A stretch of DNA of 32,228 nt, from contig JAIQFW010000022.1 in assembly GCA_020073105.1 (NCBI GenBank), forward strand, positions 1,016-33,243, read 5' to 3'. Source of the DNA: Terriglobia bacterium. GTDB lineage: Bacteria; Acidobacteriota; Terriglobia; Terriglobales; Acidobacteriaceae. The notes beneath the pieces were generated by a model. That model was not told the origin of the DNA, searched no databases, and saw only the letters and a list, made by a program, of their open reading frames with translations. Positions 4,959 to 31,624 of the stretch are shown here, piece by piece; position 1 is the stretch's first letter; each line of letters starts with the position of its first letter. Both the position numbers and the translations under genes were made by a program.

Positions 4959-4960
4959 CC

Positions 4961-4986: not shown

Positions 4987-5013
4987 AATGTCTGCGAACT
5001 GAGAACTGAATCC

Positions 5014-5730
5014 ATGACTACTCTCATCTTCAAGCGCATTCTCCTGAAGCTCTCCGGCGAAGCTCTTGCCGCCAATCAGGGATTCGGTGTGGACACAGTG
5101 CGCATCCACGAGATTGCAGCCGAACTCGCGGATGTGCATTCGCTGGGCATCCAGATTGCGATCGTCGTGGGCGGAGGCAACTTCTTCCGCGGGGTAACCG
5201 AGCAGGCGCGGGAGATGGATCGGGTTTCCGCTGATCACATGGGCATGCTGGCCACGGTGATCAATGCTCTCGCCTTGCAGGATGCACTGGAAAAGCAGGG
5301 TGTCTACACCCGCGTACAGTCTGCTATCGAGATGAACCAGGTGGCAGAACCTTTCATTCGGCGCCGCGCCATTCGCCACCTGGAAAAAGGCCGAGTGGTG
5401 ATCTTTGCCGGGGGCACGGGCAATCCGTATTTCTCGACTGACACCGCCGCATCCCTGCGGGCCATGGAGATCAAAGCGGACGTGATCCTGAAGGCCACCA
5501 AGGTGGATGGCATCTACAACGCCGATCCCATGCTGGTCAAAGACGCCAAGAAGTATACCCAGATCACCTACATGGATGTGCTGAAGAAGGGTTTGAAGGT
5601 GATGGACTCAACCGCCATCTCGCTCTGCAAGGACAACAATCTGCCGATCATCATCTTCAATCTCAATCAGCACGGCAACATCAAGAAAGTCGTGACCGGC
5701 GAGAAGGTGGGATCGCTGGTGAGCGCGTAA
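5014..5730 (+). CDS. pyrH: UMP kinase
   Basis: Converts UMP and ATP to UDP and ADP in pyrimidine nucleotide synthesis; hexameric cytoplasmic enzyme of the amino-acid-kinase fold. The 238-residue product has '[12 protein letters not shown]' at residues ~8-19 (phosphate-binding Lys), '[11 protein letters not shown]' (~51-61), '[19 protein letters not shown]' and '[20 protein letters not shown]' (~131-150), all typical. Length normal. No good ribosome-binding site is visible before ATG 5014; the start follows homology. Lies between tsf and frr, the common bacterial order, but is separated from tsf by an intrinsic terminator. Confidence 0.97.
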
Positions 5731-5740
5731 CTGCATTTCA

Positions 5741-5840
5741 CCGCAGATGAACGCAGATCAACGCAGATCAACGCAGATCAACGCAGATCCAATTTCAGAC
5801 TCGCCGGCTACTTTCTGCGTTCTCAGCGAAGATCTGCGGC
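5741..5840 (+). repeat. Tandem 'acgcagatca' repeat with an inverted distal arm
   Basis: Five consecutive 10-base units: a degenerate one at 5741-5750, three exact copies of acgcagatca at 5751-5780 and a variant at 5781-5790. After ~22 unrelated bases, the segment 5813-5840 reads as a degenerate reverse complement of the same units (ttctgcgt ... gatctgcgg). It fills most of the pyrH-frr gap. Confidence 0.8.
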
Positions 5841-5851
5841 CAGAATGGGTT

Positions 5852-5857
5852 TATAAT
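5852..5857 (+). promoter_or_regulatory. -10 element for frr
   Basis: A perfect TATAAT 37 bases before the frr ATG. No recognisable -35 lies at 16-18 bases, so the promoter is only probable. It is adjacent to the repeat arm at 5813-5840. Confidence 0.45.
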
Positions 5858-5894
5858 TCACGGTTTTGATAACTAATTTCCTGGGGAGCTGATC

Positions 5895-6485
5895 ATGGCT
5901 CAAGCTAGTATGGCCGCGATTCCCGGCCTCAAAGATACTTACGTCCAACTCAAAACTCGCATGGACAAGGCGGTCGAGGACTTCCGCAAGGCTATGGCCG
6001 CTACCCGAACCGGGCGCGCCAATGTCCACATGCTGGATGCAGTCAGCATCGACTACTACGGCTCACAGATGCCCCTCAATCAGATCGCCCAGGTGCACGC
6101 GCCCGAGGCCCAGCTCATCACCGTGCAGCCCTTCGATCCCGGTTCTCTGGCTGCTATCGAGAAGTCGATTCGCACCGCCGATCTTGGTCTGAACCCCATG
6201 AACGACGGCAAGATCATCCGCGTGCCTGTTCCGCCCTTGACCGAAGAACGCCGCAAGGACATGGTGAAACACCTGCACAAGGTCCTCGAGGACCACCGCA
6301 CCGCCGTCCGCAACATCCGCCGTGACGGCAACGACGCCATCAAGAAGGCACTGAAGGACAAGAAGATCACCGAGGACGAAGAAAAGCGGGCCATGGACGA
6401 GATCCAGAAACTCACCGATGACGAAATCAAGAAGATGGAAGACATGAGCAAGGGCAAAGAGAAGGAAGTGATGGAGATCAAGTGA
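5895..6485 (+). CDS. frr: Ribosome recycling factor
   Basis: With EF-G it splits post-termination ribosomes. The 196-residue product has the long-helix segment 'KTRMDKAVEDFRKAMAATRTGRANVHMLD' (~residues 20-48), 'VSIDYYGSQMPLNQIAQV' (~50-67), 'IRTADLGLNPMNDGKIIRVPVPPLTEERRKDMVK' and a helical C-terminus 'VRNIRRDGNDAIKKALKDKKITEDEEKRAMDEIQKLTDD', all diagnostic. It is ~10 residues longer than most at the N-terminus. GGGGAG at 5883-5888 lies six bases before ATG 5895. Confidence 0.97.
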   Translation: MAQASMAAIPGLKDTYVQLKTRMDKAVEDFRKAMAATRTGRANVHMLDAVSIDYYGSQMPLNQIAQVHAPEAQLITVQPFDPGSLAAIEKSIRTADLGLNPMNDGKIIRVPVPPLTEERRKDMVKHLHKVLEDHRTAVRNIRRDGNDAIKKALKDKKITEDEEKRAMDEIQKLTDDEIKKMEDMSKGKEKEVMEIK

Positions 6486-6555
6486 CGGCGTTTTGCGGGC
6501 CCTTCGGCCACTTCGCTCTGCTCAGTTGCTCAGGGCAGGCTCAGAGCCCGCAGCC

Positions 6556-6581
6556 GTCATCCCGAGCAAAGCGAGGGGTCT
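6556..6581 (+). repeat. Dispersed 'gtcatcccgagc...gcgagg' repeat
   Basis: The string gtcatcccgagcaaagcgag and the following bases match a short intergenic repeat (gtcatcctgagcgaagcgaagg type) that I recall from many environmental bacterial genomes. It lies in the 152-base frr-flavoprotein spacer. Recall only; copy number in this genome is unknown. Confidence 0.5.
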
Positions 6582-6605
6582 GGAGTTTCTTCGGTTTCTG
6601 AGCTG

Positions 6606-6626
6606 GCATCCGGTAACGCCGGGTGC
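6606..6626 (+). promoter_or_regulatory. Hairpin just before the flavoprotein gene
   Basis: GCATCCGG (6606-6613) pairs with CCGGGTGC (6619-6626), an 8-bp stem with one G-U and a 5-base loop, ending 11 bases before the ATG at 6638. It is followed by 'ctttactttgt', so it could act as a weak terminator of the upstream operon or as a translation-control hairpin. Confidence 0.4.
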
Positions 6627-6637
6627 CTTTACTTTGT

Positions 6638-7804
6638 ATGACCGAAAAGTTTGATGTCGTCATCCTCGGTGGCGGCGCCGCCGGCCTGATGTGCGCCATT
6701 GAGGCTGGCAAGCGCGGACGCCGCGTGGCAGTTCTGGAGCACTCCGACCGCTGCGGCAAGAAAATCCTCATCTCGGGCGGCGGCCGTTGCAACTTCACCA
6801 ACATTCACTGCCGGCCCGAAAACTTTCTCTCTGGCAATCCGCATTTCGCCAAGTCGTCACTGGCTCGTTACACGCCTGGCAATTTCCTGGCGCTCGTGCA
6901 AAAGCACAACATTCCTTACCACGAGAAAACCCTAGGTCAGCTGTTCTGCGACCGCTCGGCCCAGGACATTCTGCAAATGCTCGAAGACGAATGCCGCGCC
7001 GCCGGGGTCAGCATCTTGTGTGGAGTGTCAGTGCACGAGGTCACGAGGACCACAGAGTTTGTTCTGCGCACGACGCGCGGCGAGTTTCGAGCTCCTGCCT
7101 TGGTCGTTGCCACCGGTGGCCTGTCCATCCCTAAGATGGGTGCCACCAGCTTCGGTTACGACCTGGCCCGTCAGTTTGGATTGAAGATTCGAGAGCCCTG
7201 GCCGGCACTCGTTCCGCTGCTGCTGACCGCGGAAGATCGCAGCCGCTACTGCGACCTCGCCGGCGTGTCTGCCGAGGTAATTGCCTCCTGCAACGGTGCC
7301 CAGTTTAGGGAGAAGATGCTCATCACCCACCGCGGACTCAGCGGCCCAGCCATCCTCCAGATATCCTCTTACTGGAAGCCGCCTGCGCCGGTCGTCATCG
7401 ATCTGGCCCCGGGGAGAGATGTGATTGCTCCATTTAATGATCCCGCGACTCCTCGCAACCTCAAGGCGCTGAAGTCTACGTTCCGCGAGTTCTTGCCCAG
7501 CCGCTTGGCGGATCGCTGGCTGGAGCTTAACGCTCCTTCTTCGTTCATCACTCATGCCCTCGCCGACCTGGAACGCCGCGCCCATCACTGGGAATTCCGT
7601 CCAGCCGGTACCGAGGGCTACGCCAAAGCCGAGGTGACTGCCGGCGGAGTGGACACCGACGAACTTTCAGCCAAGACGATGGAAAGCCGCAAAGTGCCCG
7701 GCCTGTTCTTCATCGGCGAAGTGGTTGACGTCACCGGCCACCTTGGCGGATTCAACTTCCAGTGGGCTTGGGCCTCGGGAGCCTGTGCAGGGCGCACGGT
7801 TTGA
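6638..7804 (+). CDS. HI0933/BaiN-family FAD-dependent oxidoreductase
   Basis: A 388-residue flavoprotein of the HI0933/BaiN type. The N-terminus has a Rossmann FAD motif 'VVILGGGAAGLMCA' (~residues 6-19), then 'GKKILISGGGRCNFTN' (~43-58), the fingerprint of this family. 'APALVVATGGLSIPKMGATSFGYDLA' (~155-180) is a second conserved FAD/substrate segment, and 'GLFFIGEVVDVTGHLGGFNFQWAWASG' near the C-terminus is the typical closing FAD contact. The ATG at 6638 is chosen because the Rossmann strand begins right after it; the in-frame GTG at 6623 lies inside a hairpin. No clear ribosome-binding site. Physiological substrate not known for most members. Not obviously linked to its neighbours. Confidence 0.92.
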   Translation: MTEKFDVVILGGGAAGLMCAIEAGKRGRRVAVLEHSDRCGKKILISGGGRCNFTNIHCRPENFLSGNPHFAKSSLARYTPGNFLALVQKHNIPYHEKTLGQLFCDRSAQDILQMLEDECRAAGVSILCGVSVHEVTRTTEFVLRTTRGEFRAPALVVATGGLSIPKMGATSFGYDLARQFGLKIREPWPALVPLLLTAEDRSRYCDLAGVSAEVIASCNGAQFREKMLITHRGLSGPAILQISSYWKPPAPVVIDLAPGRDVIAPFNDPATPRNLKALKSTFREFLPSRLADRWLELNAPSSFITHALADLERRAHHWEFRPAGTEGYAKAEVTAGGVDTDELSAKTMESRKVPGLFFIGEVVDVTGHLGGFNFQWAWASGACAGRTV

Positions 7805-7843
7805 CCCCAAGCGACTCGCCTGCACTCCCCGACCAGTTGACCT

Positions 7844-7849
7844 TATAAT
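7844..7849 (+). promoter_or_regulatory. -10 element, possibly for a leaderless transcript
   Basis: Perfect TATAAT nine bases before the GTG start at 7859. With usual spacing, transcription would begin within 2-3 bases of the start codon, and no ribosome-binding site is visible. No convincing -35. Confidence 0.5.
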
Positions 7850-7858
7850 CAAAGATCT

Positions 7859-10063
7859 GTGAAGAAGGTTATCCACGCCGCCTGTCCGCACGACTGTCCC
7901 GATGCTTGCGGAGTCCTGATCACGATAGACGACGGTCGTGCGACCAGGATCCAGGGCGATCCGGCCCATCCCGTGACTCGCGGCTTCCTGTGCGCGAAGG
8001 TGGCCAAATATCTGGATCGGGTGTACTCGCCCGACCGCGTGCTGTATCCAATGCGGAGAATCGCTCCTAAGGGGCCGGACACGGCTCGTGTGGGGACGGT
8101 CGCCCCCGGCCGTCCGGGCGGAGCGGAGCTCCGCAGCGCATTTAAGCGCATTTCCTGGGACGAAGCGCTCAACGAAATCGCTTCCCGCTTCAAGCAGATC
8201 GCCGCTGAGTTTGGTAGCGAAGCCATTCTGCCTTACTCCTACGGCGGCACTTTGGGAGTCTTGAACGGCGCCTCCATGGACCGCCGCTTCTTTCACCGCC
8301 TGGGTGCGTCGCAGCTGGACCGGACTATTTGTTCAATGGCCGGGGAAGCAGGGCTAAAGTCCGTACTTGGAGTAAAGCTCGGTACTGAACCCGAGCAGTT
8401 CGTACATTCCCGCTACATCATTGCGTGGGCCTCGAACATCCACGGTAACAATGTGCACTTGTGGCCCTTTATCGTCGAAGCTCGCCGCCAGGGCGCAAAG
8501 CTGGTAGTCATCGATCCCTACCGCACCCGCACTGCCGCCTGTGCTGACTGGTACATGCCGATCAACCCCGGCACCGATGCCGCCCTCGCGCTCAGCATGA
8601 TGCATGTCATCATCGGTGAGAACCTGCATGACGCTGATTATGTCGAGCACCACACCATCGGCTTCAGGGAACTCCGCGAGAAGGTGCAACAGTACCCGCC
8701 GGAGCGCGTCGCCCAGTGGACCGGCATTTCGGCCTCTGATATCAGAAAGCTGGCGCGGGAGTACGCCACGGTTCGGCCTGCCGTCATACGGGTGAACGAC
8801 GGCATCCAGCGTTCCGAAGGTGGCGGCATGGCGATGCGTGCGGTCACCATGCTGCCCTGCATTACCGGCTCCTGGAAGGAAGTGGGGGGCGGTCTGCAGT
8901 ACGCTACCAGCGGGGCATTTGCGCTTGCACTCGACAAGGCGACCCTGGCTCGCTCCGATCTGATGATCAAAGCTCTGGGCCGGCCTGCCCGCATCATCAA
9001 TATGGTGGAACTCGGCAAGGTTCTCAATCAACCTCCCGATCCGCCGGTTAAGGCGCTGTTGGTCTACAATTCGAATCCGGCAGCGGTTTGCCCCGACCAC
9101 AATGCGGTGATTCGCGGCTTGAAGCGTCCCGACCTGTTCACCGTGGTCCACGAACAGTTCTTCACCGATACCACGGACTATGCCGATATCGTCCTGCCGG
9201 CGACAACATTTTTCGAGCACAAGGACCTGCAGGGCGCGTACGGCCACTACTTTCTCCAGATGTCGAATCAGGCCATCGAGCCACTGGGCGAGTGCCGCTC
9301 GAACGTTGACCTGTTTCGCGCCCTAGCTGACCGCATGGGATTCCACGATGAGTGTTTCCGCGAATCCGTGGACGAGATGATCGACGCGGCACTCAAGTCG
9401 AACCATCCCTGGCTGCAGGGGATCGACCGGCAGCGGCTGGAAGCTGAAGGACACGTCCGGCTCAATCTTGCAGCAGCCGCGGAGCTTCGCGCCGCCGGAC
9501 AGCCGAGGGCGGCTGTCCCCACGTGTTATGAGACGGCGCCCTTCCTGCCGTTTGCTGAAGGAGACTTTGGCACAGCCAGTGGCAAAGCGGAGTTCTATAG
9601 CGAGGCGTTGAAGTCTCAAGGGCTTGATCCCGCGGTTCAATTCACTCCGCCCGGCGAATCGCGACACAGCGAGCAGGCCCAGGCCTTTCCGCTCGAATTG
9701 TTGGCTCGCAAGGCGGACAACTTCCTCAACTCCACATTCTCGAATCTCCCGGCCATACAGAACATGGAAGAATCAGGCTTGCTGGAGCTGAACGCGGTGG
9801 ATGCCGGCGCCCGCGGAATCAGCGACGGGGACACGGTGAAGGTGTTTAACCGCCGCGGCGAAGTCCTGTTGAGGGCCCGAGTTGATGGTGCCGTGCCACC
9901 AGGCGTGGTCAGCGCCCATCTTCACTGGGCCAAGCTTTCCTCGGGTGGGCGCAACATTAATGTCCTTACCTCGCAAAAACTTACGGACATGGGCAACTCC
10001 GCCACGTTTTATTCCGTCTTGGTTGAGGTGGAACTCTTCCAGCCCGCCTCGACAGGGAAGTGA
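7859..10063 (+). CDS. Molybdopterin (bis-MGD) oxidoreductase, DMSO-reductase superfamily
   Basis: A 734-residue catalytic subunit. The N-terminal [4Fe-4S] motif is C9-x3-C13-x3-C17-x27-C45 ('CPHDCPDACG', 'RGFLCAKV'), followed by 'FKRISWDEALNEI' (~95-107), a superfamily hallmark. 'LVVIDPYRTRTAACADWYMPINPGTDAALALSMMHVII' and 'FTVVHEQFFTDTTDYADIVLPATTFFEHKDL' bind cofactor; the C-terminal dinucleotide-binding domain contains 'FSNLPAIQNMEES' and 'GDTVKVFNRRGEV'. No twin-arginine signal is visible, so it is probably cytoplasmic. Substrate unknown; no electron-transfer subunit is adjacent. Residues ~73-94 and ~540-556 are extra relative to the family pattern and coincide with two copies of a palindromic DNA element. 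The GTG start is placed directly before the Fe-S domain. Confidence 0.9.
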   Translation: MKKVIHAACPHDCPDACGVLITIDDGRATRIQGDPAHPVTRGFLCAKVAKYLDRVYSPDRVLYPMRRIAPKGPDTARVGTVAPGRPGGAELRSAFKRISWDEALNEIASRFKQIAAEFGSEAILPYSYGGTLGVLNGASMDRRFFHRLGASQLDRTICSMAGEAGLKSVLGVKLGTEPEQFVHSRYIIAWASNIHGNNVHLWPFIVEARRQGAKLVVIDPYRTRTAACADWYMPINPGTDAALALSMMHVIIGENLHDADYVEHHTIGFRELREKVQQYPPERVAQWTGISASDIRKLAREYATVRPAVIRVNDGIQRSEGGGMAMRAVTMLPCITGSWKEVGGGLQYATSGAFALALDKATLARSDLMIKALGRPARIINMVELGKVLNQPPDPPVKALLVYNSNPAAVCPDHNAVIRGLKRPDLFTVVHEQFFTDTTDYADIVLPATTFFEHKDLQGAYGHYFLQMSNQAIEPLGECRSNVDLFRALADRMGFHDECFRESVDEMIDAALKSNHPWLQGIDRQRLEAEGHVRLNLAAAAELRAAGQPRAAVPTCYETAPFLPFAEGDFGTASGKAEFYSEALKSQGLDPAVQFTPPGESRHSEQAQAFPLELLARKADNFLNSTFSNLPAIQNMEESGLLELNAVDAGARGISDGDTVKVFNRRGEVLLRARVDGAVPPGVVSAHLHWAKLSSGGRNINVLTSQKLTDMGNSATFYSVLVEVELFQPASTGK
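8088..8137 (-). repeat. ~50-bp palindromic element inside a coding region, copy 1
   Basis: Read on the minus strand, this segment aligns along its whole length (about 80% identity by eye, one gap) with 9476-9525 on the plus strand. It contains a 9-bp stem (8094-8102 with 8107-8115, loop cccc, one G-U) and the perfect palindrome GCGGAGCTCCGC (8123-8134). It is translated in frame as part of a loop just before the 'ISWDEAL' motif. Confidence 0.75.
9476..9525 (+). repeat. ~50-bp palindromic element inside a coding region, copy 2
   Basis: Inverted copy of the element at 8088-8137. The stem GGACAGCCG (9497-9505) and CGGCTGTCC (9510-9518) is perfect with loop aggg; the outer part 'gcggagcttcgc' corresponds to the palindrome of copy 1 with one change. 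It is translated in frame as an Ala/Arg-rich loop before the C-terminal cofactor-binding domain. Confidence 0.75.
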
Positions 10064-22219: not shown

Positions 22220-22978
22220 CTAGGGCTGAGTGTTTTTTTGGAACTTATTTGCAACTGCTTCAGGCAGGATCTCTTCGAGTCTGCGCGCCAGCCAATTTTG
22301 CAGCTCTGACTTCTGCTGTTGGGAAAGGTTCAGGAACTGCAGGCCCAGGCGGCCGCTTCCGTCACTCCAACAGATCTTTGATTCCGTGGTGAAGCGGGTT
22401 GGCTGGTCGGGAAGAGTGAAAGCCACCGCCACCTCTGAACCCGGCTTCAGCGCAATGGGAGCAGTGAGCGCCATCCCATTTTCACTGATGTTGAGCGTCT
22501 TGCACTGAAGTTCTCCGCCCTCCCGGCTGCGCAACAGTGCCGGAAGTACGACCGGGCAACGGAAATAGCGGCGCCGCTCCCGCATGATCGTTCCATAGGC
22601 GGCCTTCAGGCTGCGGCTGACAGACTCGCCGGAAAGCGGTCTTTCCAGCACAAAATTCGACCCAGCGTTAAACGCCCGAGTGGTGTCCGACCCACCGCCA
22701 GTGACCGCGAAGGTCGCGGCGTTCTTGGTCGAAGGAGAAGATCGCACCTGCTCCAGGATCGCCCGGGCTGCGTCTCCTATCTGCAGGTCGACAATGACGG
22801 CTTCGAAGTGGCGACGATTCAGCGTCTGTAACGCGGAGGAAGGCTCGCCACATACCTCGGCCGTCATGGCGAACTGTTGCAAGCCCTCCGTCAACTGCTG
22901 GACAGTTGCGGCGTCATTGGAGACAACAAGCGCGGTTGCAACCGGGGCCGACTTCGTAGATGCACCTGTGTTTGTCAT
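22220..22978 (-). CDS. Receiver-like/PilZ two-domain protein
   Basis: A 252-residue protein joining a response-regulator-like domain (~residues 14-130) to a C-terminal PilZ domain (~134-235). In the first, 'ALVVSND', 'EAVIVDLQIGD' (Asp64 at the phosphoacceptor position) and 'FAVTGGG' follow the receiver pattern, but the usual acidic pair near the start is only S-N-D and the conserved Lys is not obvious, so it may be degenerate. The PilZ domain keeps the c-di-GMP residues: R136-x3-R140 ('RRYFR') and N163-x-S165-x2-G168 ('NISENG'), then 'RLGLQFLNLS'. It probably senses c-di-GMP; output unknown. Start: GGAAGG eight bases before the ATG; an upstream GTG (22987) is less likely. Confidence 0.85.
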   Translation of the reverse strand: MTNTGASTKSAPVATALVVSNDAATVQQLTEGLQQFAMTAEVCGEPSSALQTLNRRHFEAVIVDLQIGDAARAILEQVRSSPSTKNAATFAVTGGGSDTTRAFNAGSNFVLERPLSGESVSRSLKAAYGTIMRERRRYFRCPVVLPALLRSREGGELQCKTLNISENGMALTAPIALKPGSEVAVAFTLPDQPTRFTTESKICWSDGSGRLGLQFLNLSQQQKSELQNWLARRLEEILPEAVANKFQKNTQP

Positions 22979-23435
22979 ACCACGCACCTTCCATACGCTA
23001 GCAATTTCTTACAGCCCCTGGGGAGAAAACGGCTCCTATAGAAAATTGAGGAACGCAATTCATGTAGGCGGATTGTGGTGATTCTTGCGCCAGTAATCGG
23101 ATATGTCAAGTTCCTTCCGGACAATATGATGCGAGCTGCGTTCTGGTAGGTGTGCGCGCCATCCAGGCCTCACTATTTCGAGCATCGTGGGCTGAACATA
23201 CCGGGTCGCAATGCGCGCCAGTGCGCGAAAGCCCCAGTCCAGCTGGCCATCTCAGCATCAGGTCCTCGGGACATCCGCCCAGCTGGAACTCCACCACGGA
23301 GATCCCCCACTCGCTTAGATAGGTACTGTGGCAAGGCCGAATACTCATTCGACCGTGTACCTTGGTCATCAACTTGTCACAAACATTTAACTTGGGATTC
23401 ATCCTCCCGGAACCAGGCTGCGGTATTTCTCGAAC
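22979..23435. other. Divergent intergenic region between the PilZ and acyltransferase genes
   Basis: A 457-base region that must hold the promoters of two divergent genes. No clear sigma-70 pair, RNA gene or repeat was recognised. The open frames crossing it have unlikely composition and no ribosome-binding site. Confidence 0.5.
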
Positions 23436-25271
23436 ATGCCCATGGCGGAGTCAAGGCACGAGAACCTGGGTCAGAACCTAAGGCGGTCCACGGCCTTTTT
23501 GTCCGGCAATGGCTTCGCCTCCAGATTCCTTCCATTCCATGAGATTGAGGACCTGTACGGCAGAGTGCGCACGACTGGGGGTGGTTCATGGTTTCAACGG
23601 CTGCTCGATGAGATGCCGGTGAGCTTCAGAGTCGATGGAAAGGATTGGGAGAGGATACCGAAGACCGGACCCGTGCTGGCCGTGTCCAACCATCCTTTTG
23701 GCATGCTGGACGGCGCCGTTTTGGGGGCGTTGCTGACCCAGGTGCGCTGCGACGCAAAAATCATGACCAACTTCCTCCTGTCCGGTGTTCCCGAATTGCA
23801 GGAACACTGTATTTTCGTAGACCCACTGAACGGAAGAGACTCGGTTCAGGCCAATCGAAGGGCGCTGAGGCAGGCCCTGCTGTGGCTGCGAACCGGGCAT
23901 ATGCTTGCAGTCTTTCCCGCTGGCGAAGTGTCCCACTTACAACTCACCCAAGGCAGCGTCACTGATCCGAAGTGGAACCCGATGATTGCGCGGCTCGCCC
24001 GGGTAACCGGCGCAGCTGCCCTTCCCGTGTTTTTTCCGGGAAGAAACAGCGTGACGTTTCAGACGCTGGGCCTGATGCATCCCCGGCTTCGTACAGCCTG
24101 GTTGATGAGCGAATTTCTCGGTCAAGCGGGTAAGACCGTCGAGGTACGAATCGGAACCGCGGTCTCCGGCGATGTCCTCGCACGCCTCCATGGGGACCAG
24201 GAGACGATCGATTACCTCAGACGGCGCACCTACCTGTTGTCGCGAAGATCGTGCGCCGCTCCAGGCCCATTCCTGAACCCGAACTTTGTTTTCCCGCGGA
24301 AGGAACACGCCCCGATTGCGGCCGAAACCGAGCGGGATGCACTACTTGCTGAAATCCAGCAGCTCGACCCGGGACAACTCCTGGAAGATACGCGCGAGTT
24401 CTCGGTCTACGTGGCACGAGCTCAACAGATTCCAAGCTTGCTCCGAGAACTTGGCCGGCTAAGGGAAATCACCTTCCGTGATGTGGGGGAAGGCACAGGC
24501 GAGAGCCGGGACCTGGATCCCTTCGACGCCTACTACCTGCACGTATTTCTATGGGACAAGGCAAAGCAACAGTTAGTCGGTGCCTACCGCATGGGGATTG
24601 GCCCAGAGATCCTGGCCAGGCGGGGGCCCCGGGGCCTGTATACGAGCACCCTTTTTCACTACCACCCGCGCTTCTTCGAGAAACTCGGTCCGGCAGTAGA
24701 ACTGGGGCGATCGTTTGTTCTCCCCGATTATCAACGGCAATTTGCACCGTTGCTGCTTCTCTGGAGAGGAATTGCGCGCTATCTTTCGGACCATCCTGAA
24801 ACCCCGGTGCTGTTTGGCGCCGTGAGTATCAGCAACCGATACAGCCCGGCCTCGCGCGAGCTGATCGTACGGTATTTTGAATCACGGCAGCCGGACGAAA
24901 TGGCGGGCCTCGTCCGCCCTCGCCGTCCATTTCGCTCCTCGTGGCTCCGGCCCTGGGATTGCACTGCCATCTGCCATTCGCTGCGTGATTTGGAAGACCT
25001 GGGAGCTTCCGTCTCCGATTTGGAAACCGACGCCAAAGGGATTCCGATTCTTTTGCGCCAGTACGCCAAGCTCGGCGGCCGCTTGCTGGCGTTCAATGTG
25101 GACCGAAATTTTTCCGATGTTCTCGATGGCCTGGTACTGGTCGATCTCCGTCAGACCGACACCGCGGTCCTGGAGCGCTACATGGGAAAACAGGGGCTCG
25201 CACGTTTCCGTCGCCACCATCTGCTGTCCGATCCTCTGGCGCTCGACATGCAGGAGCTAAGCAGCAACTAA
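23436..25271 (+). CDS. Two-domain acyltransferase: LPLAT-type O-acyltransferase plus GNAT-type N-acyltransferase (OlsF-like)
   Basis: A 611-residue protein. The N-terminal domain (~residues 60-270) is a lysophospholipid-acyltransferase type: 'VLAVSNHPFGMLDGAVLG' has the catalytic His86 and Asp92, 'FVDPLNGRDS' and 'LAVFPAGEVSHLQ' the glycerol-phosphate-binding segments. The C-terminal domain (~305-480) is a 'hemolysin/OlsB' GNAT fold: 'FSVYVARAQQIPSLLRELGRLREITFRDVGEGT', 'DAYYLHVFLWDKAKQQLVGAYRMG', 'VELGRSFVLPDYQRQFAPLLLLWRGIARYL', then 'LFGAVSISNRYSPASRELI'. Known OlsF proteins combine these two activities to make ornithine lipids; this one probably makes an aminolipid, amino acid unknown. 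No ribosome-binding site near ATG 23436 or 23442. No membrane helix is obvious; peripheral at the inner membrane is likely. Confidence 0.87.
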   Translation: MPMAESRHENLGQNLRRSTAFLSGNGFASRFLPFHEIEDLYGRVRTTGGGSWFQRLLDEMPVSFRVDGKDWERIPKTGPVLAVSNHPFGMLDGAVLGALLTQVRCDAKIMTNFLLSGVPELQEHCIFVDPLNGRDSVQANRRALRQALLWLRTGHMLAVFPAGEVSHLQLTQGSVTDPKWNPMIARLARVTGAAALPVFFPGRNSVTFQTLGLMHPRLRTAWLMSEFLGQAGKTVEVRIGTAVSGDVLARLHGDQETIDYLRRRTYLLSRRSCAAPGPFLNPNFVFPRKEHAPIAAETERDALLAEIQQLDPGQLLEDTREFSVYVARAQQIPSLLRELGRLREITFRDVGEGTGESRDLDPFDAYYLHVFLWDKAKQQLVGAYRMGIGPEILARRGPRGLYTSTLFHYHPRFFEKLGPAVELGRSFVLPDYQRQFAPLLLLWRGIARYLSDHPETPVLFGAVSISNRYSPASRELIVRYFESRQPDEMAGLVRPRRPFRSSWLRPWDCTAICHSLRDLEDLGASVSDLETDAKGIPILLRQYAKLGGRLLAFNVDRNFSDVLDGLVLVDLRQTDTAVLERYMGKQGLARFRRHHLLSDPLALDMQELSSN

Positions 25272-25539: not shown

Positions 25540-27192
25540 GTGGCTTTTGTAAAAGCAACCAAGCTGCGCTGCTTTTCGCAGGTCATCTTCTTCCTGCTGT
25601 TTCTGTTTCTTCTGCTGCGGACTGAGTTCCGCGGATCGTTTCACACCAGTGCCGGCGACATTCGACTGCCTTACCCAGTCAACTTGTTCTTCCGCTTTGA
25701 TCCGTTGGTGGCGCTGTCGAATGCCCTCTCCGGTCATGCTTTATATCGCGGTCTGCTGTGGAGCTTGGTAATTCTGGTCCCAACCATGTTTCTCGGCCGG
25801 TTTTTCTGCGGATGGATTTGCCCCCTCGGCTCCATCCATCACTTCTTCGGCAGCCTGAAGTCGGAGCGGAAGCGTGGAACACAACTTATCGAGTCGAACC
25901 GATACAAGCGCTGGCAGACGACCAAGTACTACCTGTTGATCGTGGTGCTGGTTGCTGCTCTGATGGGCACGGGGATTGTTGGGTGGTTGGATCCGCTTTC
26001 CCTGCTGGTGCGCTCTCTCGGTCTGGCAATCCTTCCTGGAGCGGACTATGCCGTGAGTGCCGTGCTGCGCACCATGGAACACAGCAGATTTGTGCCGGTG
26101 CAAACCGCAGGCAGCGTACTGCACTTCATTTTCGGGTGGGTGCTACTCAGCTTCAAACAGCCATACTTTCGGCAAGGCATTTGGCTTGGTCTGATCTTCG
26201 TCCTTCTTGTGGCACTAAACTTCCGTGTGACCCGGTTCTGGTGCCGGGCGCTCTGCCCGCTCGGTGCGTTGCTTGGCATTGTTTCCCGCTGGTCGATTCT
26301 TGGCTTGGTCAAGACGCCGGAGCACTGCAACGACTGCAACCGCTGCCTTCTACGCTGCCAGGGAGGTGATGATCCCATCGGTGGCGTTCCCTGGCGCCAA
26401 CCCGAATGTCATCTCTGTCTGAACTGTGTTGATGAGTGTCCCGAGCATGGTCTGCAGTTCAAGTTCTTTCCCCCGCAAACTTCTATGGGCATGAGCCTGC
26501 AGAGACGCAAGGTACTCACGGGATTGGCGGCTGGGGCGGCCATTGTTCCACTCGCCCGCAGCACGCCTGGATTCGCTGTCGAGCGTCATGAACGGCTGCT
26601 TCGTCCGCCGGGAGCGCTGGACGAAGACCCTTTCCTCTCACGCTGCATACGCTGCGGTGAGTGCATGAAGGTTTGTCCCAACAACGCACTGCATCCCGCG
26701 TTGACTGAAGCTGGTCTGGAGGGTCTGTGGACCCCGGTCATGGTTCCGCGGATTGGCTACTGCGAAACCAGTTGTGTAATTTGCTCGCAGGTTTGTCCCA
26801 CGGGCGCAATCTGGGAAATCACGTCGAAAGAGAAGGGCTGGGCGGAAGGCGATATCACGAAGGCGAAGCCGATCCGGTTGGGCACCGCTTTCTACGATCG
26901 CGGGCGGTGCCTGCCGTGGGCCATGGCAACGCCTTGCATCGTCTGCGAGGAGTGGTGTCCGACGTCGCCCAAGGCCATTTATCTGCAGCCCACCGACGTG
27001 GTGGATGCAGCCGGCAAAGTGAAGCAAGTGAAACAGCCGTACCTTGACCCGCAGCGCTGCGTGGGCTGTGGCGCTTGTGAATATGCCTGCCCGGTTCAGG
27101 ATCGTCCGGCAATTTACGTAACCAGCGTTGGCGAGACCCGTTCTCCAACCAACCAGATCCTCCTGAATCGAAGCAAAGGGAGTGCTACGTGA
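25540..27192 (+). CDS. NapH-NapG-like fused membrane/periplasmic ferredoxin protein
   Basis: A 550-residue iron-sulfur protein. N-terminal half: NapH/NosR-type quinol-side membrane domain with about five helices (~12-28, 68-88, 129-150, 190-207, 213-230) and CX3CP motifs at C90/C94 ('FCGWICPLGS') and C235/C239 ('WCRALCPLGA'), then two cytoplasmic cysteine clusters (C263-C273, C290-C300). At R322-R323 a twin-arginine-like stretch 'LQRRKVLTGLAAGAAIVPLA' leads into a NapG-like half with four further clusters: C369-C379, C408-C419, C466-C473 and C507-C517. NapH and NapG are separate proteins in nitrate-reductase systems, where they pass electrons from quinol to the periplasm; here they are one chain. 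GTG start is set by GAGGAG (25527-25532). First gene of the cluster; its stop overlaps the next start. Confidence 0.88.
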   Translation: MAFVKATKLRCFSQVIFFLLFLFLLLRTEFRGSFHTSAGDIRLPYPVNLFFRFDPLVALSNALSGHALYRGLLWSLVILVPTMFLGRFFCGWICPLGSIHHFFGSLKSERKRGTQLIESNRYKRWQTTKYYLLIVVLVAALMGTGIVGWLDPLSLLVRSLGLAILPGADYAVSAVLRTMEHSRFVPVQTAGSVLHFIFGWVLLSFKQPYFRQGIWLGLIFVLLVALNFRVTRFWCRALCPLGALLGIVSRWSILGLVKTPEHCNDCNRCLLRCQGGDDPIGGVPWRQPECHLCLNCVDECPEHGLQFKFFPPQTSMGMSLQRRKVLTGLAAGAAIVPLARSTPGFAVERHERLLRPPGALDEDPFLSRCIRCGECMKVCPNNALHPALTEAGLEGLWTPVMVPRIGYCETSCVICSQVCPTGAIWEITSKEKGWAEGDITKAKPIRLGTAFYDRGRCLPWAMATPCIVCEEWCPTSPKAIYLQPTDVVDAAGKVKQVKQPYLDPQRCVGCGACEYACPVQDRPAIYVTSVGETRSPTNQILLNRSKGSAT

Positions 27193-27701
27193 TCAGAACG
27201 CACACCATCTTGCGGGGCATCATGCGGATCGCTGTGTGTGTAGCCCTCCTCGGAGATGTGGGCTGCAAGCGAGAATCGCAGACGAAAATCACGACGTTCC
27301 CCGCCTCCAATGAGGCCTTGGGGTGGATGAAAACTTCCGACATTCGTAGCTTTGAAGCTGCCGACCTCTGGAAGTACGTTGACGGAGAAGCGGAAAGGTA
27401 CCTGAAAGCGGGGATACAAAGCACGTCCACGGCCGACTACAGGTTTCAAAACAAGCTCGAAGCGGTGGTTGACATCTACACCATGCAGAACACAGAAGGC
27501 GCCACGAAGATCCTTGAGTCGGAGCCGGCCGGTGGTGCGAAGTCCGTTCAATTGGGCGACAGCGCACGCTTGTACAGCCAGAGCTTGGTTTTCCGTAAAG
27601 GACCTTATCTGGTGCGGATCGTTGCCTATGAAGAATCCTCGGAGGTGCAGCAAGCACTTCTTGAGCTGGGTCGCGGCATAGAACAACGACTTGGGAAGTG
27701 A
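27189..27701 (+). CDS. DUF6599-like secreted or lipid-anchored protein
   Basis: A 170-residue protein whose body ('EALGWMKTSDIRSFEAADLWKYVDGEAERYLKAGIQSTSTADYRF', then 'VVDIYTMQNTEGATKILESE') follows the pattern of DUF6599 proteins, which often accompany AmmeMemoRadiSam and ferredoxin genes in Acidobacteria and related groups (recall, not checked). The N-terminus is a signal-like hydrophobic stretch ending at Cys21 ('LLGDVGC'), a poor lipobox because of Asp at -3; ATG at residue 12 would still keep the segment. The GTG start overlaps the stop of the NapHG-like gene (gTGA), so translation is coupled. Function unknown. Confidence 0.75.
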   Translation: MIRTHTILRGIMRIAVCVALLGDVGCKRESQTKITTFPASNEALGWMKTSDIRSFEAADLWKYVDGEAERYLKAGIQSTSTADYRFQNKLEAVVDIYTMQNTEGATKILESEPAGGAKSVQLGDSARLYSQSLVFRKGPYLVRIVAYEESSEVQQALLELGRGIEQRLGK

Positions 27702-27787
27702 CGGTAGGAGTGGTGTGCATCACTGAAAACTTACCGGGGTTGCGGTATGCGTAACTTGAGGCAGTCAACCTCTAAGTAGGACAGGTC

Positions 27788-28795
27788 ATGTGCCACAAGA
27801 GTGACACGAACCGGCGGGACTTCCTGAAGACGTGCATCACCGGCGCTGCCGTCCTCGGGGTGAGGGGGAAGATGGGGTTGCTCGAAGCCGCAGAACAAGG
27901 GGTGCCCGGCAAATCCAAGGTCGTGATCGCCCGCGATGCCATGCTGCGAGGCACTGGAACCGCTGTGGACTCCCACCGGATGCTGAATCTGCTGGATCGC
28001 ACGATGCAAACCCTCTTCGACCGCGACCATCCATCCGACCCGTGGAAGAGGCTGGTCCGCCCGGGAGAGACAGTAGGCCTGAAAGTAAACGCGCTTGGAG
28101 GCCGTGGGCTTTCGAGCAATGTGCAGCTGGTCGACGCGATCTGTGAGCGATTGCAGCAGGTTGGAATCAGGGCCAGCGACATCATTATCTGGGACCGCGA
28201 CAGCGACGAACTGGAACGGGTCGGATTTCGTGTTTCCACAACGGGCAACCGTGTGCAATGTCTCGGGACTGACCGGGTTGATTACGAGGAAGAGTTGGTC
28301 ACCTTCGGTGCTGTGGGCAGCCGCTTGTCGAGGATTCTGACGCGACGTTGCGATGTCCTGATCAATGTGCCGGTCCTGAAAGACCACGACGGCGCCGGTG
28401 TGACCGCTGCCTTGAAGAACATGTACGGCGTGATCCACAACCCCAACAAATACCACCCGAACGGCTGCAACCCCTACATCGCTGACGTCAACATGCTGCC
28501 CCAGATCAGAACCAAGATGCGCTTGACCATTTGTGACGCCACGACGGCCTGCTTCGAAGGTGGGCCGGGATACAAGCCACAGTACAGCTGGAAGAACAAT
28601 GCCCTGATCGTTTCCCAGGATCCGGTCGCACTCGACTACACTGGCTGGCAGATCATCGAGCGCAAGCGAGCCGAGAAGGGATTAAAGACACTGGAAGTCG
28701 ATGGCAGAATGCCCCACTACATCGCGACTGCGGCCGATGCTAAGCACCGGCTGGGCACGAATGATCCCAAGCGGATCACGGTGGTTGAAGTGTAG
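27788..28795 (+). CDS. DUF362 protein with twin-arginine signal
   Basis: A 335-residue protein. Residues 9-14 'RRDFLK' with the following 'TCITGAAVLGVRGKMG' make a textbook twin-arginine signal, so export in folded form is likely. The rest matches the DUF362 family: 'VGLKVNALGGRGLSSNVQLVDAICERL', 'DIIIWDRDSDELERVGF', 'DVLINVPVLKDHDGAGVTAALKNMYGVIHNP' and 'VSQDPVALDYTGWQII'. DUF362 proteins have no assigned reaction; many carry a ferredoxin domain, but this one has only a few scattered Cys. An 86-base spacer with a small bulged hairpin separates it from the DUF6599-like gene; a good ribosome-binding site is not evident. Confidence 0.88.
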   Translation: MCHKSDTNRRDFLKTCITGAAVLGVRGKMGLLEAAEQGVPGKSKVVIARDAMLRGTGTAVDSHRMLNLLDRTMQTLFDRDHPSDPWKRLVRPGETVGLKVNALGGRGLSSNVQLVDAICERLQQVGIRASDIIIWDRDSDELERVGFRVSTTGNRVQCLGTDRVDYEEELVTFGAVGSRLSRILTRRCDVLINVPVLKDHDGAGVTAALKNMYGVIHNPNKYHPNGCNPYIADVNMLPQIRTKMRLTICDATTACFEGGPGYKPQYSWKNNALIVSQDPVALDYTGWQIIERKRAEKGLKTLEVDGRMPHYIATAADAKHRLGTNDPKRITVVEV

Positions 28796-28817
28796 GGCGG
28801 GCGTCATTGAGGTTCGT

Positions 28818-30005
28818 ATGTCACGGAAGTTTGGCACCGGAATTGAGCATCCACTCACCGCCGGGCTCGGTCGCCGCTCGTTCTTGAAGTGCGGGCTGGC
28901 ATCAGGAGCCGTCTTGGGCTTATGTGAATTTGCTAAACCCCTCGTCGCGGTCCCCTCATGGGCCGTTCCGCAGAAGCAGGACGACTCCCGCTTCGTAGTC
29001 GAAGCGAAGTTTTATCAGAAACTGCCGAACAAGAAGGTCAAGTGCAAGCTGTGTCCGCGGGAGTGCACGGTGGGAGATCGGGAACGCGGCTACTGTGGCG
29101 TGCGCGAGAACCGTGGGGGAACCTACTTCACGCTGGTGCACTCGCGGGTGTGCGCGGCGCACATCGACCCGATCGAGAAGAAGCCCCTGTTCCACTACTT
29201 GCCGGGAACGTTGGCGTTTTCGCTCGCCACAGCCGGGTGCAACGTCAACTGCAAGTTCTGTCAGAACTGGGACATTTCGCAGGTGCGTCCGGAGCAGGTG
29301 CCCGCCGAATACGCTCCCCCGAAGCTGGTGGCCGAGTTGGCCCAGCAAAATCACTGCCCGACGATTGCCTTCACCTACAGCGAGCCGGTGGTCTTCAGCG
29401 AGTACTTGATGGATGCAGCCGATGCCGGACACGCAGCTGGCATCCGCAGTGTGGTCGTGTCCAACGGCTACATCCAGGAGGAAGCGCTGAAGGCGGCATA
29501 CGGAAAAATGGACGCGGTCAAGATCGATCTAAAAGCGTTCTCGGAGTCCTACTATAAGGACGTGGTCGTAGGGGAGCTCAAGCCGGTGCTGGACACGTTG
29601 ATTACGTTGCGCAAGATGGGCAAGTGGACGGAAATTGTCTACCTCGTGGTGCCAACCCTCAATGATAGCGACTCAGAGTTCCACGGTCTGGCACGGTGGA
29701 TCAAGATAAATCTGGGCGTGGATGTGCCGGTACATTTCACGCAGTTTCATCCGGAATACCTGCTGAAGAATCTGCCTATCACGCCGGTCCCCACACTTGA
29801 GCGGGCCAAGGCAATTGCTGACGCCGAGGGTCTGCACTACGTTTACATCGGGAATGTGCCGGGACATCCTGCGCAAAACACTTACTGCCCAAAGTGCCGC
29901 CACTTGCTGGTTGAACGAGTGGGCTTGACAGCGACGCAGATGCTGATCCGCAAGGGCCATTGTCCGTTCTGTCAGCAGCCGATCCCGGGCGTGTGGCATG
30001 CATGA
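28818..30005 (+). CDS. AmmeMemoRadiSam-system radical SAM enzyme with twin-arginine signal
   Basis: A 395-residue radical SAM protein. Motif C141-x3-C145-x2-C148 ('GCNVNCKFCQNWDIS') binds the SAM cluster; 'AFTYSEPVVFSEYLMDAA' and 'VSNGYIQEEALK' continue the barrel, as in the PflA-like AmmeMemoRadiSam family. An N-terminal 'CKLCPREC...GYCGV' (C76, C79, C83, C93) and a C-terminal zinc-ribbon-like C357/C360 plus C382/C385 are also family features. Unusual is the N-terminus: 'GRRSFLKCGLASGAVLG' (R19-R20), a twin-arginine signal. Start: GAGG (28809-28812) five bases before ATG 28818; an in-frame upstream start would lie inside the DUF362 gene. The gap to each neighbour is under 25 bases, so one operon. 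Confidence 0.92.
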   Translation: MSRKFGTGIEHPLTAGLGRRSFLKCGLASGAVLGLCEFAKPLVAVPSWAVPQKQDDSRFVVEAKFYQKLPNKKVKCKLCPRECTVGDRERGYCGVRENRGGTYFTLVHSRVCAAHIDPIEKKPLFHYLPGTLAFSLATAGCNVNCKFCQNWDISQVRPEQVPAEYAPPKLVAELAQQNHCPTIAFTYSEPVVFSEYLMDAADAGHAAGIRSVVVSNGYIQEEALKAAYGKMDAVKIDLKAFSESYYKDVVVGELKPVLDTLITLRKMGKWTEIVYLVVPTLNDSDSEFHGLARWIKINLGVDVPVHFTQFHPEYLLKNLPITPVPTLERAKAIADAEGLHYVYIGNVPGHPAQNTYCPKCRHLLVERVGLTATQMLIRKGHCPFCQQPIPGVWHA

Positions 30006-30028
30006 GAGCGTGCGAGGAGGGTTCGTGT

Positions 30029-31624
30029 ATGAATATCAGGATGCGATCCATGGTGTATTGGGTGGCGGGCTGCTTGATTGCAGTTCTGGGGATCACAACG
30101 CCGCAATATTCCCGTGCAGCGAATCCGCAAAGTGTGCGAAAGCCGGGGGTGGCAGGCGCCTTCTATCCGGCTGATCCCAAGGCACTGTCGGCAATGATCG
30201 ACGACATGTTGGCCCACGCATCTCCGCCGGCGATCGCTGACCCGGTCCTGGCCGTGGTGGCACCCCACGCGGGCTATCAATTTTCCGGTCCCGTCGCCGC
30301 CTACACCTACGCTGCCCTTAAGGGACACAAGTTTTCCCGGGTAGTCGTTATTGCGCCCTCCCACTACGAAGCGTTTGACTTCACCTCCGTGTATGACGGC
30401 GACGCCTATGCGACTCCGCTCGGGACAGTCCAGGTGGACAAAGCGTTTGCAAGCAAGTTAGTGAAGATGAGCTCGACCATCCGCCTTTCCAGCCGTGGGC
30501 ACGCTCCCACGAAGGAAGGATCTGAACACGCTCTCGAAGTGGAGTTGCCATGGCTGCAACGCGTGCTGGGTAATTTCGAACTCGTCCCCGTGGTCATGGG
30601 AGAACAGGGCTATGAAAGCAGCCGAGCCTTGGGAGTGGCCTTGGCAAAGCTGATTCCGGATAATGACACGCTGATCGTGGCGAGTTCCGATCTGTCTCAC
30701 TATCACCCTTACGATGAGGCAGTAACGATCGACCACAAAACGCTGAACGCACTACAGGCTTGGGATTACTTCAGCATGTCGCAGAACTTCGGGATGCGGG
30801 TGTGGGAAGCCTGCGGCGGCGCGCCTATCGTTGCGGCGATGATTGCCGCGGAGCGGATGGGCGCGAACCAGGCCGTCGTGCTCAAGTACGCCAACTCAGG
30901 AGATACGGCCGGAGACCACTCACGTGTGGTCGGATACAGCGCGGTCGCGCTAGTGAAAACCCAAAACCATCGAGCAGCAGAGCAATCGTTCTCCGTGGGG
31001 GCTCACGACAAAACTGAGCTGCTTGGTCTGGCTCGCAAGTCGGTGGAACAGGCCGTCCGGGAGCGCAAGACGTATGAGCCCCCTGCGAGTTCCAGCGAAG
31101 CGTTGAATCAGGAGCGTGGGGCATTTGTGACCCTGAAGAAGTCAGGAGAATTGCGGGGCTGTATCGGCTATACCTCCGCCGTCAAACCTCTCTACATGAC
31201 TGTGAGGGACACGGCCACTCTGGCCGCTCTGCGCGACTCCCGGTTCGAGCCCGTATCGGTCTCGGAATTGGGTCAACTCGAGTACGAAATCTCGGTGCTG
31301 TCTCCGCTACGGCGTGTGCTGGACATTCGACAGATCAAAGTCGGCCAGCACGGCTTGCTGATGAGAAACGGCGATCAACAGGGCCTTCTGTTGCCTCAGG
31401 TTCCCGTAGAGGAAGGATGGGACCGCCAGAGGTTTCTGGAACAAACATGCGTCAAAGCAGGCATGCGCCCAGCCTGTTGGAAGGATGAAAACACGGACAT
31501 CTTCATGTTCACCGCTGTGGTGTTCGGCGAAAGCAGGCCAAAGCCGCTTATGCCCGAGACGTCTTTAGCTCCCGGCTTTCCCGGCCGGCAAGGACAGCAG
31601 GTCCCAGGTTTACCGCCGCACTGA
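30029..31624 (+). CDS. MEMO-AMMECR1 fusion (AmmeMemoRadiSam proteins B and A) with signal peptide
   Basis: A 531-residue two-domain protein. A Sec signal (~residues 1-32, 'VYWVAGCLIAVLGITT', cut near 'YSRAANP') precedes a MEMO domain (~38-315) that keeps the metal-site residues of human MEMO1 by position: H80 ('APHAGYQ'), H112 ('APSHYEAF'), D221 and H224 ('SSDLSHYHP'), C262 ('EACGGAPIV'). The AMMECR1 domain (~330-520) has the 'LRGCIGYTSA' signature (C378) and 'GLLLPQVPVEEGWDRQRFLEQTC'. In most genomes A and B are separate; here they are one exported chain. The start has GAGGAGG (30014-30020) eight bases before ATG 30029. Reaction unknown. Its 3' end overlaps a convergent gene by 77 bases. Confidence 0.93.
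   Translation: MNIRMRSMVYWVAGCLIAVLGITTPQYSRAANPQSVRKPGVAGAFYPADPKALSAMIDDMLAHASPPAIADPVLAVVAPHAGYQFSGPVAAYTYAALKGHKFSRVVVIAPSHYEAFDFTSVYDGDAYATPLGTVQVDKAFASKLVKMSSTIRLSSRGHAPTKEGSEHALEVELPWLQRVLGNFELVPVVMGEQGYESSRALGVALAKLIPDNDTLIVASSDLSHYHPYDEAVTIDHKTLNALQAWDYFSMSQNFGMRVWEACGGAPIVAAMIAAERMGANQAVVLKYANSGDTAGDHSRVVGYSAVALVKTQNHRAAEQSFSVGAHDKTELLGLARKSVEQAVRERKTYEPPASSSEALNQERGAFVTLKKSGELRGCIGYTSAVKPLYMTVRDTATLAALRDSRFEPVSVSELGQLEYEISVLSPLRRVLDIRQIKVGQHGLLMRNGDQQGLLLPQVPVEEGWDRQRFLEQTCVKAGMRPACWKDENTDIFMFTAVVFGESRPKPLMPETSLAPGFPGRQGQQVPGLPPH

Follow-up and report, generated by a model that had tools for sequence, protein, structure and literature searches.

Positions 25540-31624 of a 32,228-nucleotide stretch of DNA from a Terriglobia bacterium (Acidobacteriota; contig JAIQFW010000022.1 of GenBank assembly GCA_020073105.1), hereafter called the window, contain five genes, all on the plus strand, whose gene calls and family matches agree. 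The three core families encoded there, a radical S-adenosylmethionine (SAM) enzyme, MEMO and AMMECR1, are known as the AmmeMemoRadiSam system, under which the locus is best filed; the form described here, with predicted export signals on its proteins, is apparently new. A preliminary description of this DNA noted five co-directional genes with short gaps or overlaps, and this is borne out: the first two genes share a 4-base overlap, and the remaining spacers are 86, 22 and 23 bases.

25540..27192, plus strand: NapH-NapG-like fusion (NapHG), putative membrane quinone-linked iron-sulfur protein (550 amino acids, GTG start, Fer4 domains)
27189..27701, plus strand: DUF6599 protein, probable lipoprotein or secreted protein (PF20244, 61.8 bits; cut-off 27)
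27788..28795, plus strand: DUF362a, predicted LarA-like fold, twin-arginine translocation (Tat)-type signal (PF04015, 78.7 bits; cut-off 24)
28818..30005, plus strand: AmmeMemoRadiSam radical SAM enzyme, Tat-type signal (TIGR04337, 380.2 bits; cut-off 220)
30029..31624, plus strand: MEMO-AMMECR1 fusion, Sec-type signal (TIGR04336, 263.1 bits, cut-off 26; TIGR04335, 182.9 bits, cut-off 99)

Predicted export signal of the radical SAM enzyme

The N-terminus of the radical SAM protein, GRRSFLKCGLASGAVLGL, is Tat-like.

28872..28877, plus strand: twin arginine R19-R20 of the radical SAM protein

In relatives we scanned the region ahead of the conserved core for two arginines with an uncharged hydrophobic stretch behind them, a home-made scan that yields predictions only. 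Its final form calls for 11 uncharged residues with a mean hydropathy of at least 1.0; the first form used a 13-residue window and was relaxed once, after it had missed the window's own Tat signals. Hence the twin-arginine signals earlier described on the DUF362 and radical SAM proteins are recovered by the 11-residue scan and fail the stricter one.

In the final scan the signal is scored in 78 of 86 exported-type radical SAM open reading frames (ORFs); of 29 other TIGR04337 proteins from relatives, one has it. This first sample, in which one ORF is a second, fragmentary radical SAM-like frame in L143 (L, G and C numbers are our handles for loci, genomes and contigs), was obtained with an exported-type query, of whose 578 confirmed stretches the best 80 were kept, and its rate is therefore one for near relatives; two of its loci, L042 and L150, have identical cores. 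A second sample, from 149 genomes of the window's phylum, each at least 90% complete, gives 28 of 29 against 2 of 20 weaker TIGR04337 matches from the same search, and is not fully independent, as the cores of L191, L197 and L206 are identical to first-sample rows. Under the 13-residue window the first sample gives 66 of 85 against 0 of 29, and the second gives 22 of 29 against 2 of 20. The contrast survives the stricter window and is more than chance.

Among the scan failures, L082 and L084 start too near the core, while L088, L109 and L111 have an RR motif by eye; the second-sample miss, L198, carries RRDFLK by eye. The sole control positive has its motif upstream of the probable start. The same is true of L229, one of the two positives among the weaker matches; the other, L231, looks like a genuine, divergent Tat-type copy. 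L231 (G139:C80, 150-1751) is a very divergent second radical SAM copy, in a genome that also has a typical exported copy (L202).

Could these motifs be accidental or non-functional, and the proteins cytoplasmic? The scan is a prediction, home-made and once relaxed, which leaves some room for this idea. We nevertheless regard it as extremely improbable in view of the contrasts in both samples and under both windows, the spread of carriers over at least eight phyla, and the Sec-like signals on partner proteins. A TatC gene was found in the window genome. Judged from these sequences, it is very likely that the radical SAM protein is exported by Tat and resides outside the cytoplasm.

Phylogeny and catalytic residues

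With the signals mapped onto a radical SAM tree, as the preliminary description had suggested, all Tat-type rows fall together: 85 of 85 exported-type rows lie on one side of a branch from the 29 controls, with good support (93/94). A second tree took in 72 of 163 rows: 24 of the 85 exported ones, 16 of the 29 from the second sample, all 20 sisters (the weaker matches) and 12 of the 29 controls. With L231 classed as exported on its motif, this tree separates 41 of 41 exported rows from 31 others (support 93/83) and nests them among non-Tat relatives.

29238..29261, plus strand: CxxxCxxC cluster motif (C141-C145-C148), unchanged in all 85 exported and all 29 control rows

All 11 cysteines of the protein, namely an N-terminal four, the CxxxCxxC motif and a C-terminal four, are invariant in the rows that cover them (84-85 exported, 28-29 control), so the exported enzyme looks active. 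Only two core positions, Y103 and A137, separate the sets consistently (at least 93% of exported against at least 80% of control rows). An alternative is that the exported protein serves as an iron-sulfur electron carrier and has lost radical SAM catalysis, as other Tat substrates are iron-sulfur carriers; this would remove the problem of SAM supply. It sits poorly with the invariance of all three cysteine sets and with the scores of five exported proteins on TIGR04337 (331 to 387 bits), and we consider it highly improbable. A sequence search for solved structures at E <= 0.001 gave one relative only, pyruvate formate-lyase activating enzyme (3c8f, E 2.9e-4), which is cytosolic; no glycyl radical enzyme was found among the genes scanned at the locus.

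Internal TGA flags in five TIGR04337 matches raised the possibility of selenocysteine or recoding, which we set aside on the case of the window, where the TGA is the natural stop (30003-30005), overrun by the match by two codons. In L178 (G080:C100:1-10000), an ORF at 7497-9260 resembles, by eye, a shifted-frame radical SAM gene that runs into DUF362b. This second copy may be broken, and G080 has another radical SAM copy in L090.

The MEMO-AMMECR1 fusion

The fusion protein (MEMO domain 30143-30943, AMMECR1 domain 31025-31525) begins with MNIRMRSMVYWVAGCLIAVLGITTPQYSRAA, a Sec-like signal as earlier reported, and a signal-like stretch is present in 44 of 45 such ORFs. Unlinked copies agree: all ten that were fetched are fusions with a signal-like start (by eye). 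The MEMO metal-site residues H80, H112 and C262, which by alignment we take to be H49, H81 and C244 of human MEMO, are retained in at least 95% of 44 rows. When genomes whose locus lacks the fusion were searched, AMMECR1 was found in an open frame of at least 480 amino acids in 29 of 36; one of the 36 (that of L107) does have a copy close by.

AMMECR1 and MEMO are conserved as far as humans, and Burroughs et al. (J Biol Chem, 2019) reportedly proposed links of the MEMO superfamily to base and isoprenoid modification. One paper states that the primary molecular function of MEMO1 remains unknown (PMC11081632), and another mentions Memo-Ammecr1 systems with a related radical SAM domain (PMC7159879).

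A membrane partner with a spermidine-synthase-like domain

Two further parts, absent from the preliminary description, are found next to the five genes or on a second contig of the same genome.

31548->32228, minus strand: C-terminal membrane half of MFS-SpdSyn (major facilitator superfamily, spermidine synthase), convergent, cut by the contig end
C158:10579-11649: DUF362b, Tat-type, divergent, adjoining the N-terminal part of MFS-SpdSyn

The N-terminal part of MFS-SpdSyn, with its spermidine-synthase-like domain, ends contig C158 (G000:C158:11617-13233). In L043 and L072 an identical gene order is found on one contig. Going by these arrangements, MFS-SpdSyn and DUF362b seem to complete a seven-part system with the five window genes.

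Full-length relatives of MFS-SpdSyn have seven helices, a 300-residue spermidine-synthase-like domain and seven further helices, and an AlphaFold2 model (pLDDT, the predicted local distance difference test, 88) shows the same 7 + 7 membrane helices, with the domain between helices 7 and 8. The lysines and arginines of each loop, averaged over 55 sequences and summed by hand, total 20.06 in the even-numbered loops against 4.75 in the odd-numbered ones (domain excluded). This excess places the domain outside, and it is thus predicted to be extracytoplasmic. The membrane part matches MFS folds along almost the entire model, namely SV2A (Z 24.4, root-mean-square deviation (rmsd) 4.1, 358 residues, model range 33-798) and NorC (Z 21.0 over 333 residues); Pfam gave no MFS match in the four relatives scanned, so MFS membership is assigned by fold.

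The GGG loop is retained (G337 in 53 of 55 sequences, G338 in 48), as is the adenosine-side Asp392 (55 of 55). At the column of the usual catalytic aspartate (D-x-x-D/E-P region), assigned by alignment and presumably equivalent to the catalytic Asp of spermidine synthase, only 13 of the 55 sequences have Asp; 33, the near relative L043 among them, have Asn. Four full-length relatives score 141.6 to 177.2 bits on the PRK03612 equivalog, below its cut-off of 472; on NF037959 (cut-off 40), four relatives reach 39.8, 39.0, 38.6 and 51.6 bits, and the window part, which is only the C-terminal half, 31.5. The protein shares membrane helices, a SpdSyn domain, the GGG loop and Asp392 with the membrane or MFS-fused spermidine synthases of these families, and differs from them in its 14 helices split 7 + 7 and in the scarcity of the catalytic Asp. 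Models and motifs together suggest that MFS-SpdSyn may be a transporter-like protein with a nucleoside-binding, probably SAM-related domain on its outer face.

In nine Aminicenantes loci (L113, L116, L122, L123, L125, L128, L135, L137, L142), genes resembling heterodisulfide reductase and 2-oxoacid:ferredoxin oxidoreductase, named from sequence features, follow MFS-SpdSyn. This operon (9 to 10 loci) was judged to be lineage synteny and not a part of the system.

DUF362 proteins

DUF362a begins with NRRDFLKTCITGAAVLGV, which is Tat-like.

27809..27829, plus strand: Tat motif NRRDFLK of DUF362a

With both kinds of DUF362 pooled, 42 of 86 ORFs have a signal. Copies adjacent to the radical SAM gene that have an N-terminal extension are Tat-like in 32 of 39 cases, by a slightly looser motif; in 19 loci (11 Aminicenantes, 8 Zixibacteria-like) the adjacent copy has no such extension. 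DUF362 export is therefore limited to some lineages, and the earlier claim that nearly all members are exported does not hold universally. The lineage groups were assigned by hand from titles and trees, with L110, L114, L118 and L126 placed in Zixibacteria and L140 and L147, titled Acidobacteria, in Aminicenantes.

DUF362 directly precedes the radical SAM gene in 58 of the 73 loci having 1 kb of upstream DNA. The family forms two clades: the larger holds the copies adjoining the radical SAM gene and a few others, and the smaller holds those found with NapHG or beyond MFS-SpdSyn.

The best fold match of the DUF362a AlphaFold2 model (pLDDT 91.8) is malate racemase (6d6z), with Z 16.9 and rmsd 2.9 over 205 residues. 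The other entries of LarA type lie at Z 14.4 to 16.4, and the following rows at no more than 4.8. Eleven of the 12 matching entries are titled racemase or LarA-like, with identities of 11 to 18%. On this modelled structure, DUF362 is assigned the LarA fold. A sequence search for solved relatives gave two weak matches (best E 0.023), none usable. According to one paper, DUF362 and DUF2088 (LarA) both belong to Pfam clan CL0471 (PMC11770544). DUF362 thus has fold and clan in common with the LarA superfamily (lactate and malate racemases, nickel-pincer nucleotide), and is set apart by its low identity and its Tat-type signal. LarC was found in 7 of 7 genomes tested, two of which are without the exported enzyme.

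NapHG and DUF6599

As first described, NapHG has its own membrane helices. It scores 100.8 bits on the NapG model NF007012 (cut-off 269), and 80.6 and 88.7 bits on the NapH/MauN models NF007013 and TIGR02163 (cut-offs 234 and 213). By its sequence, then, the fusion is NapH/NapG-like, though below the equivalog cut-offs for NapH and NapG.

26497..26580, plus strand: internal twin-arginine-like segment, QRRKVLTGLAAGAAIVPLA, between the NapH and NapG halves (RR in 8 of 9 aligned fusions, KR in one)

The order of membrane half, ferredoxin half, Tat-like segment and multi-cluster half is that of the NapH/NapG (MauN/MauM) quinol dehydrogenase; the window protein differs in being one fused chain, with scores far under the cut-offs. 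No nitrate reductase was found among the five genes and two flanking genes scanned.

NapHG was found in 42 of the 50 further exported-enzyme genomes searched (out of 80 named genomes). The second kind of DUF362, judged by weak score and not by tree, occurs in the same stretch as NapHG in 10 of 10 fetched loci. Moreover, L157 (G019:C6:130001-144000) carries at 4479-8737 a NapHG-DUF6599-DUF362-DUF362 cluster in a genome without a TIGR04337 or AMMECR1 match, and this looks like a separate quinone-linked LarA-fold module. For both reasons the primary link of NapHG is probably with DUF362, and only this would connect it to the radical SAM enzyme. The earlier view of NapHG as a member of the system does not hold as worded, for NapHG is separable: G019 has its module without the enzyme, and in G015 and G058 the exported enzyme occurs with no NapHG match at E <= 1e-60.

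Radical SAM clusters lie far below menaquinol in potential, and quinol cannot directly drive SAM cleavage. Since quinol alone cannot reduce the cluster, electrons would either serve the DUF362 and MEMO side or flow inward from a substrate. In the latter case the system would be oxidative: electrons from a substrate outside would pass through DUF362 and NapHG to the quinone pool, and no outward reductant would be required. The potential of the clusters, the constant company of NapHG and second-kind DUF362, and the module standing alone in G019 all speak for such a scheme; against it, the NapGH relatives that are known best carry electrons outward from quinol. We hold the oxidative scheme, and inward flow with it, to be possible yet somewhat doubtful, and give outward flow from quinol about an even chance.

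DUF6599 had been described as having a signal-like N-terminus. The window protein fails the scan, its hydrophobic stretch being short and broken by Asp, so the claim holds for relatives (signal in 24 of 27 placed ORFs) and not for the window. The protein does have a Cys at the lipobox place common to its relatives. Its gene has a GTG start, and an alternative in-frame ATG at 27222 is possible. DUF6599 was dropped as a marker of the system, as PF20244 occurs in 53 of 61 relatives.

Distribution and co-occurrence

Carriers among the best 80 of 578 stretches include members of Acidobacteriota, Latescibacterota, Calditrichota, Zixiibacteriota, KSB1, Aminicenantes, Myxococcota, Planctomycetota and Thermodesulfobacteriota. 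The cores of two Aminicenantes rows are identical to rows of the phylum sample, so Aminicenantes is apparently counted in the window's phylum and we speak of at least eight phyla. The distinct extracytoplasmic form that had been proposed presumably exists, linked and widely conserved, but is not specific to this lineage.

The suggested search of relatives for the gene neighbourhood supports linkage of DUF362 to the radical SAM gene, whereas parts absent from a locus are often elsewhere in the same genome. Of the 48 loci whose flanks are ample, 39 have MFS-SpdSyn, 28 MEMO-AMMECR1, 21 DUF6599 and 8 NapH. In genomes without a close copy, MFS-SpdSyn was found elsewhere in 20 of 24; the 24 comprise 23 of the 24 named loci without MFS-SpdSyn (L150 was left out) and L073, whose copy is 7 kb away.

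Five of 61 relative genomes have the exported enzyme (G000, G015, G026, G058 and G059). All five have MFS-SpdSyn at E <= 1e-200, as against 0 of the 56 others, two of which give partial matches near 1e-42. A long AMMECR1 frame, of MEMO-AMMECR1 length, occurs in 5 of 5 against 1 of 56 (G008). For NapHG the counts are 3 of 5, with the G059 copy divided between two ORFs, and 1 of 56 (G019). Fisher tests, which ignore shared ancestry, give 1.7e-7 for MFS-SpdSyn, 1.0e-6 for the long AMMECR1 frame and 1.1e-3 for NapHG. Within the 61 relatives, MFS-SpdSyn and MEMO-AMMECR1 are the most constant genome-level partners. Counted without regard to kind, TIGR04337 and AMMECR1 matches share one set of 30 genomes among the 61. 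The G008 fusion, in L158 (G008:C84:42001-46500) at 709-2193, is signal-bearing and is the sole AMMECR1 match in that genome.

The window genome also has a separate MEMO (C56), a separate AMMECR1 (C95) and non-Tat radical SAM gene fragments (C2, C225), presumably a cytosolic set. Compared with the non-Tat AmmeMemoRadiSam system (TIGR04335, TIGR04336, TIGR04337), the window form has the same three families above curated cut-offs and identical catalytic cysteines; it differs in having Tat and Sec signals, in the fusion of MEMO with AMMECR1, and in the addition of MFS-SpdSyn, DUF362, NapHG and DUF6599. The classical trio is found within the same phylum: in L234, L236 and L237 (G248, G224, G189), non-Tat radical SAM genes have MEMO and AMMECR1 close by.

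A proposed extracytoplasmic radical SAM system

What the sequences show is one group of TIGR04337 radical SAM enzymes with a Tat signal, in company with a Sec-signal MEMO-AMMECR1 fusion, one or two DUF362 proteins of LarA fold, in most cases NapHG, frequently DUF6599, and the 14-helix MFS-SpdSyn. Taken as a whole, we lean modestly toward an extracytoplasmic form of the AmmeMemoRadiSam system, with MFS-SpdSyn handling SAM or its by-products and NapHG-DUF362 providing a link to quinone. The radical SAM enzyme would fold and take up its clusters in the cytoplasm, and then be exported by Tat. Radical chemistry would then take place on the outer side of the inner membrane, with the metal-binding MEMO-AMMECR1 as a partner. 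MFS-SpdSyn would bring SAM out through its outward-facing domain, or use it to bind nucleoside by-products and return them. NapHG and DUF362b would connect the LarA-fold DUF362 proteins, and through them the whole system, to the quinone pool. The steps are not equally secure. That the radical chemistry takes place outside is an evenly balanced call, and a role for MFS-SpdSyn with SAM or its by-products is somewhat less likely than not. A wholly extracytoplasmic radical SAM system, with a dedicated MFS-SpdSyn moving SAM or retrieving spent nucleosides and NapHG and LarA-like DUF362 coupling it to quinone, is conceivable, with the chances leaning against it.

A rival account puts the radical chemistry in the cytoplasm, before or during export: SAM would be used there, and what Tat carries out, a protein or complex already modified or loaded with clusters, would act outside with no need of SAM. 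In its favour, SAM is not known from beyond the cytoplasm, Tat substrates travel folded and with their cofactors in place, and the 19 loci whose DUF362 has no extension would allow a cytoplasmic step there. However, with a signal in 44 of 45 MEMO-AMMECR1 ORFs the partners would hardly meet inside; the spermidine-synthase-like domain is predicted to be outside; and the same genome has separate, presumably cytoplasmic MEMO, AMMECR1 and radical SAM fragments. On balance we find cytoplasmic chemistry unlikely.

Several points count against an extracytoplasmic system with these partners. SAM is, to our knowledge, not known outside the cytoplasm, and binding of SAM by the spermidine-synthase-like domain is inferred from conserved motifs only. 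On the side of export, the scan was relaxed once; L097 and L100, in the exported group, have no Tat motif whatsoever; the radical-SAM-adjacent DUF362 of some lineages has no extension; and branch support for the exported enzymes, while good, is under the level that the tool stars. On the side of the partners, NapHG was missing from 8 of the 50 further genomes and, at E <= 1e-60, from G015 and G058, which have the exported enzyme; 4 of the 24 further genomes yielded no MFS-SpdSyn; and G008 has an exported-type fusion, while its only TIGR04337 match is non-Tat. Finally, the 61 relatives are not independent samples.

We know of no earlier radical SAM pathway outside the cytoplasm, so that a wholly external system, if real, would be the first, and it would imply a periplasmic pool of SAM. 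Should radical SAM chemistry occur outside the cytoplasm, the belief that it is confined to compartments that make or import SAM would have to change. A bacterial SAM carrier of the MFS-SpdSyn kind would likewise be a new class of transporter. For AMMECR1 and MEMO, a form that is naturally exported, and whose partners are set by their joint occurrence in at least eight phyla, makes the biochemical question narrower and directs attention to an activity at the membrane, connected with both a SAM-type nucleoside and the quinone pool. Our searches of open-licence papers, at the level of titles and the opening lines of abstracts, brought up nothing on an exported radical SAM enzyme or on this cluster; a passage in one paper does no more than name a radical SAM gene near another locus (PMC10924467).

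Neighbouring genes

Directly upstream of the five genes, at 23436-25271, lies a gene for an OlsF-like bifunctional ornithine-lipid synthase (400 bits; cut-off 620). It was found in none of the other 84 loci of the 85-locus set, in which short flanks are common, and it offers no clue to a substrate. Further upstream, 22220-22987 on the minus strand encodes a PilZ-domain protein, with a response-regulator receiver match under the Pfam cut-off.

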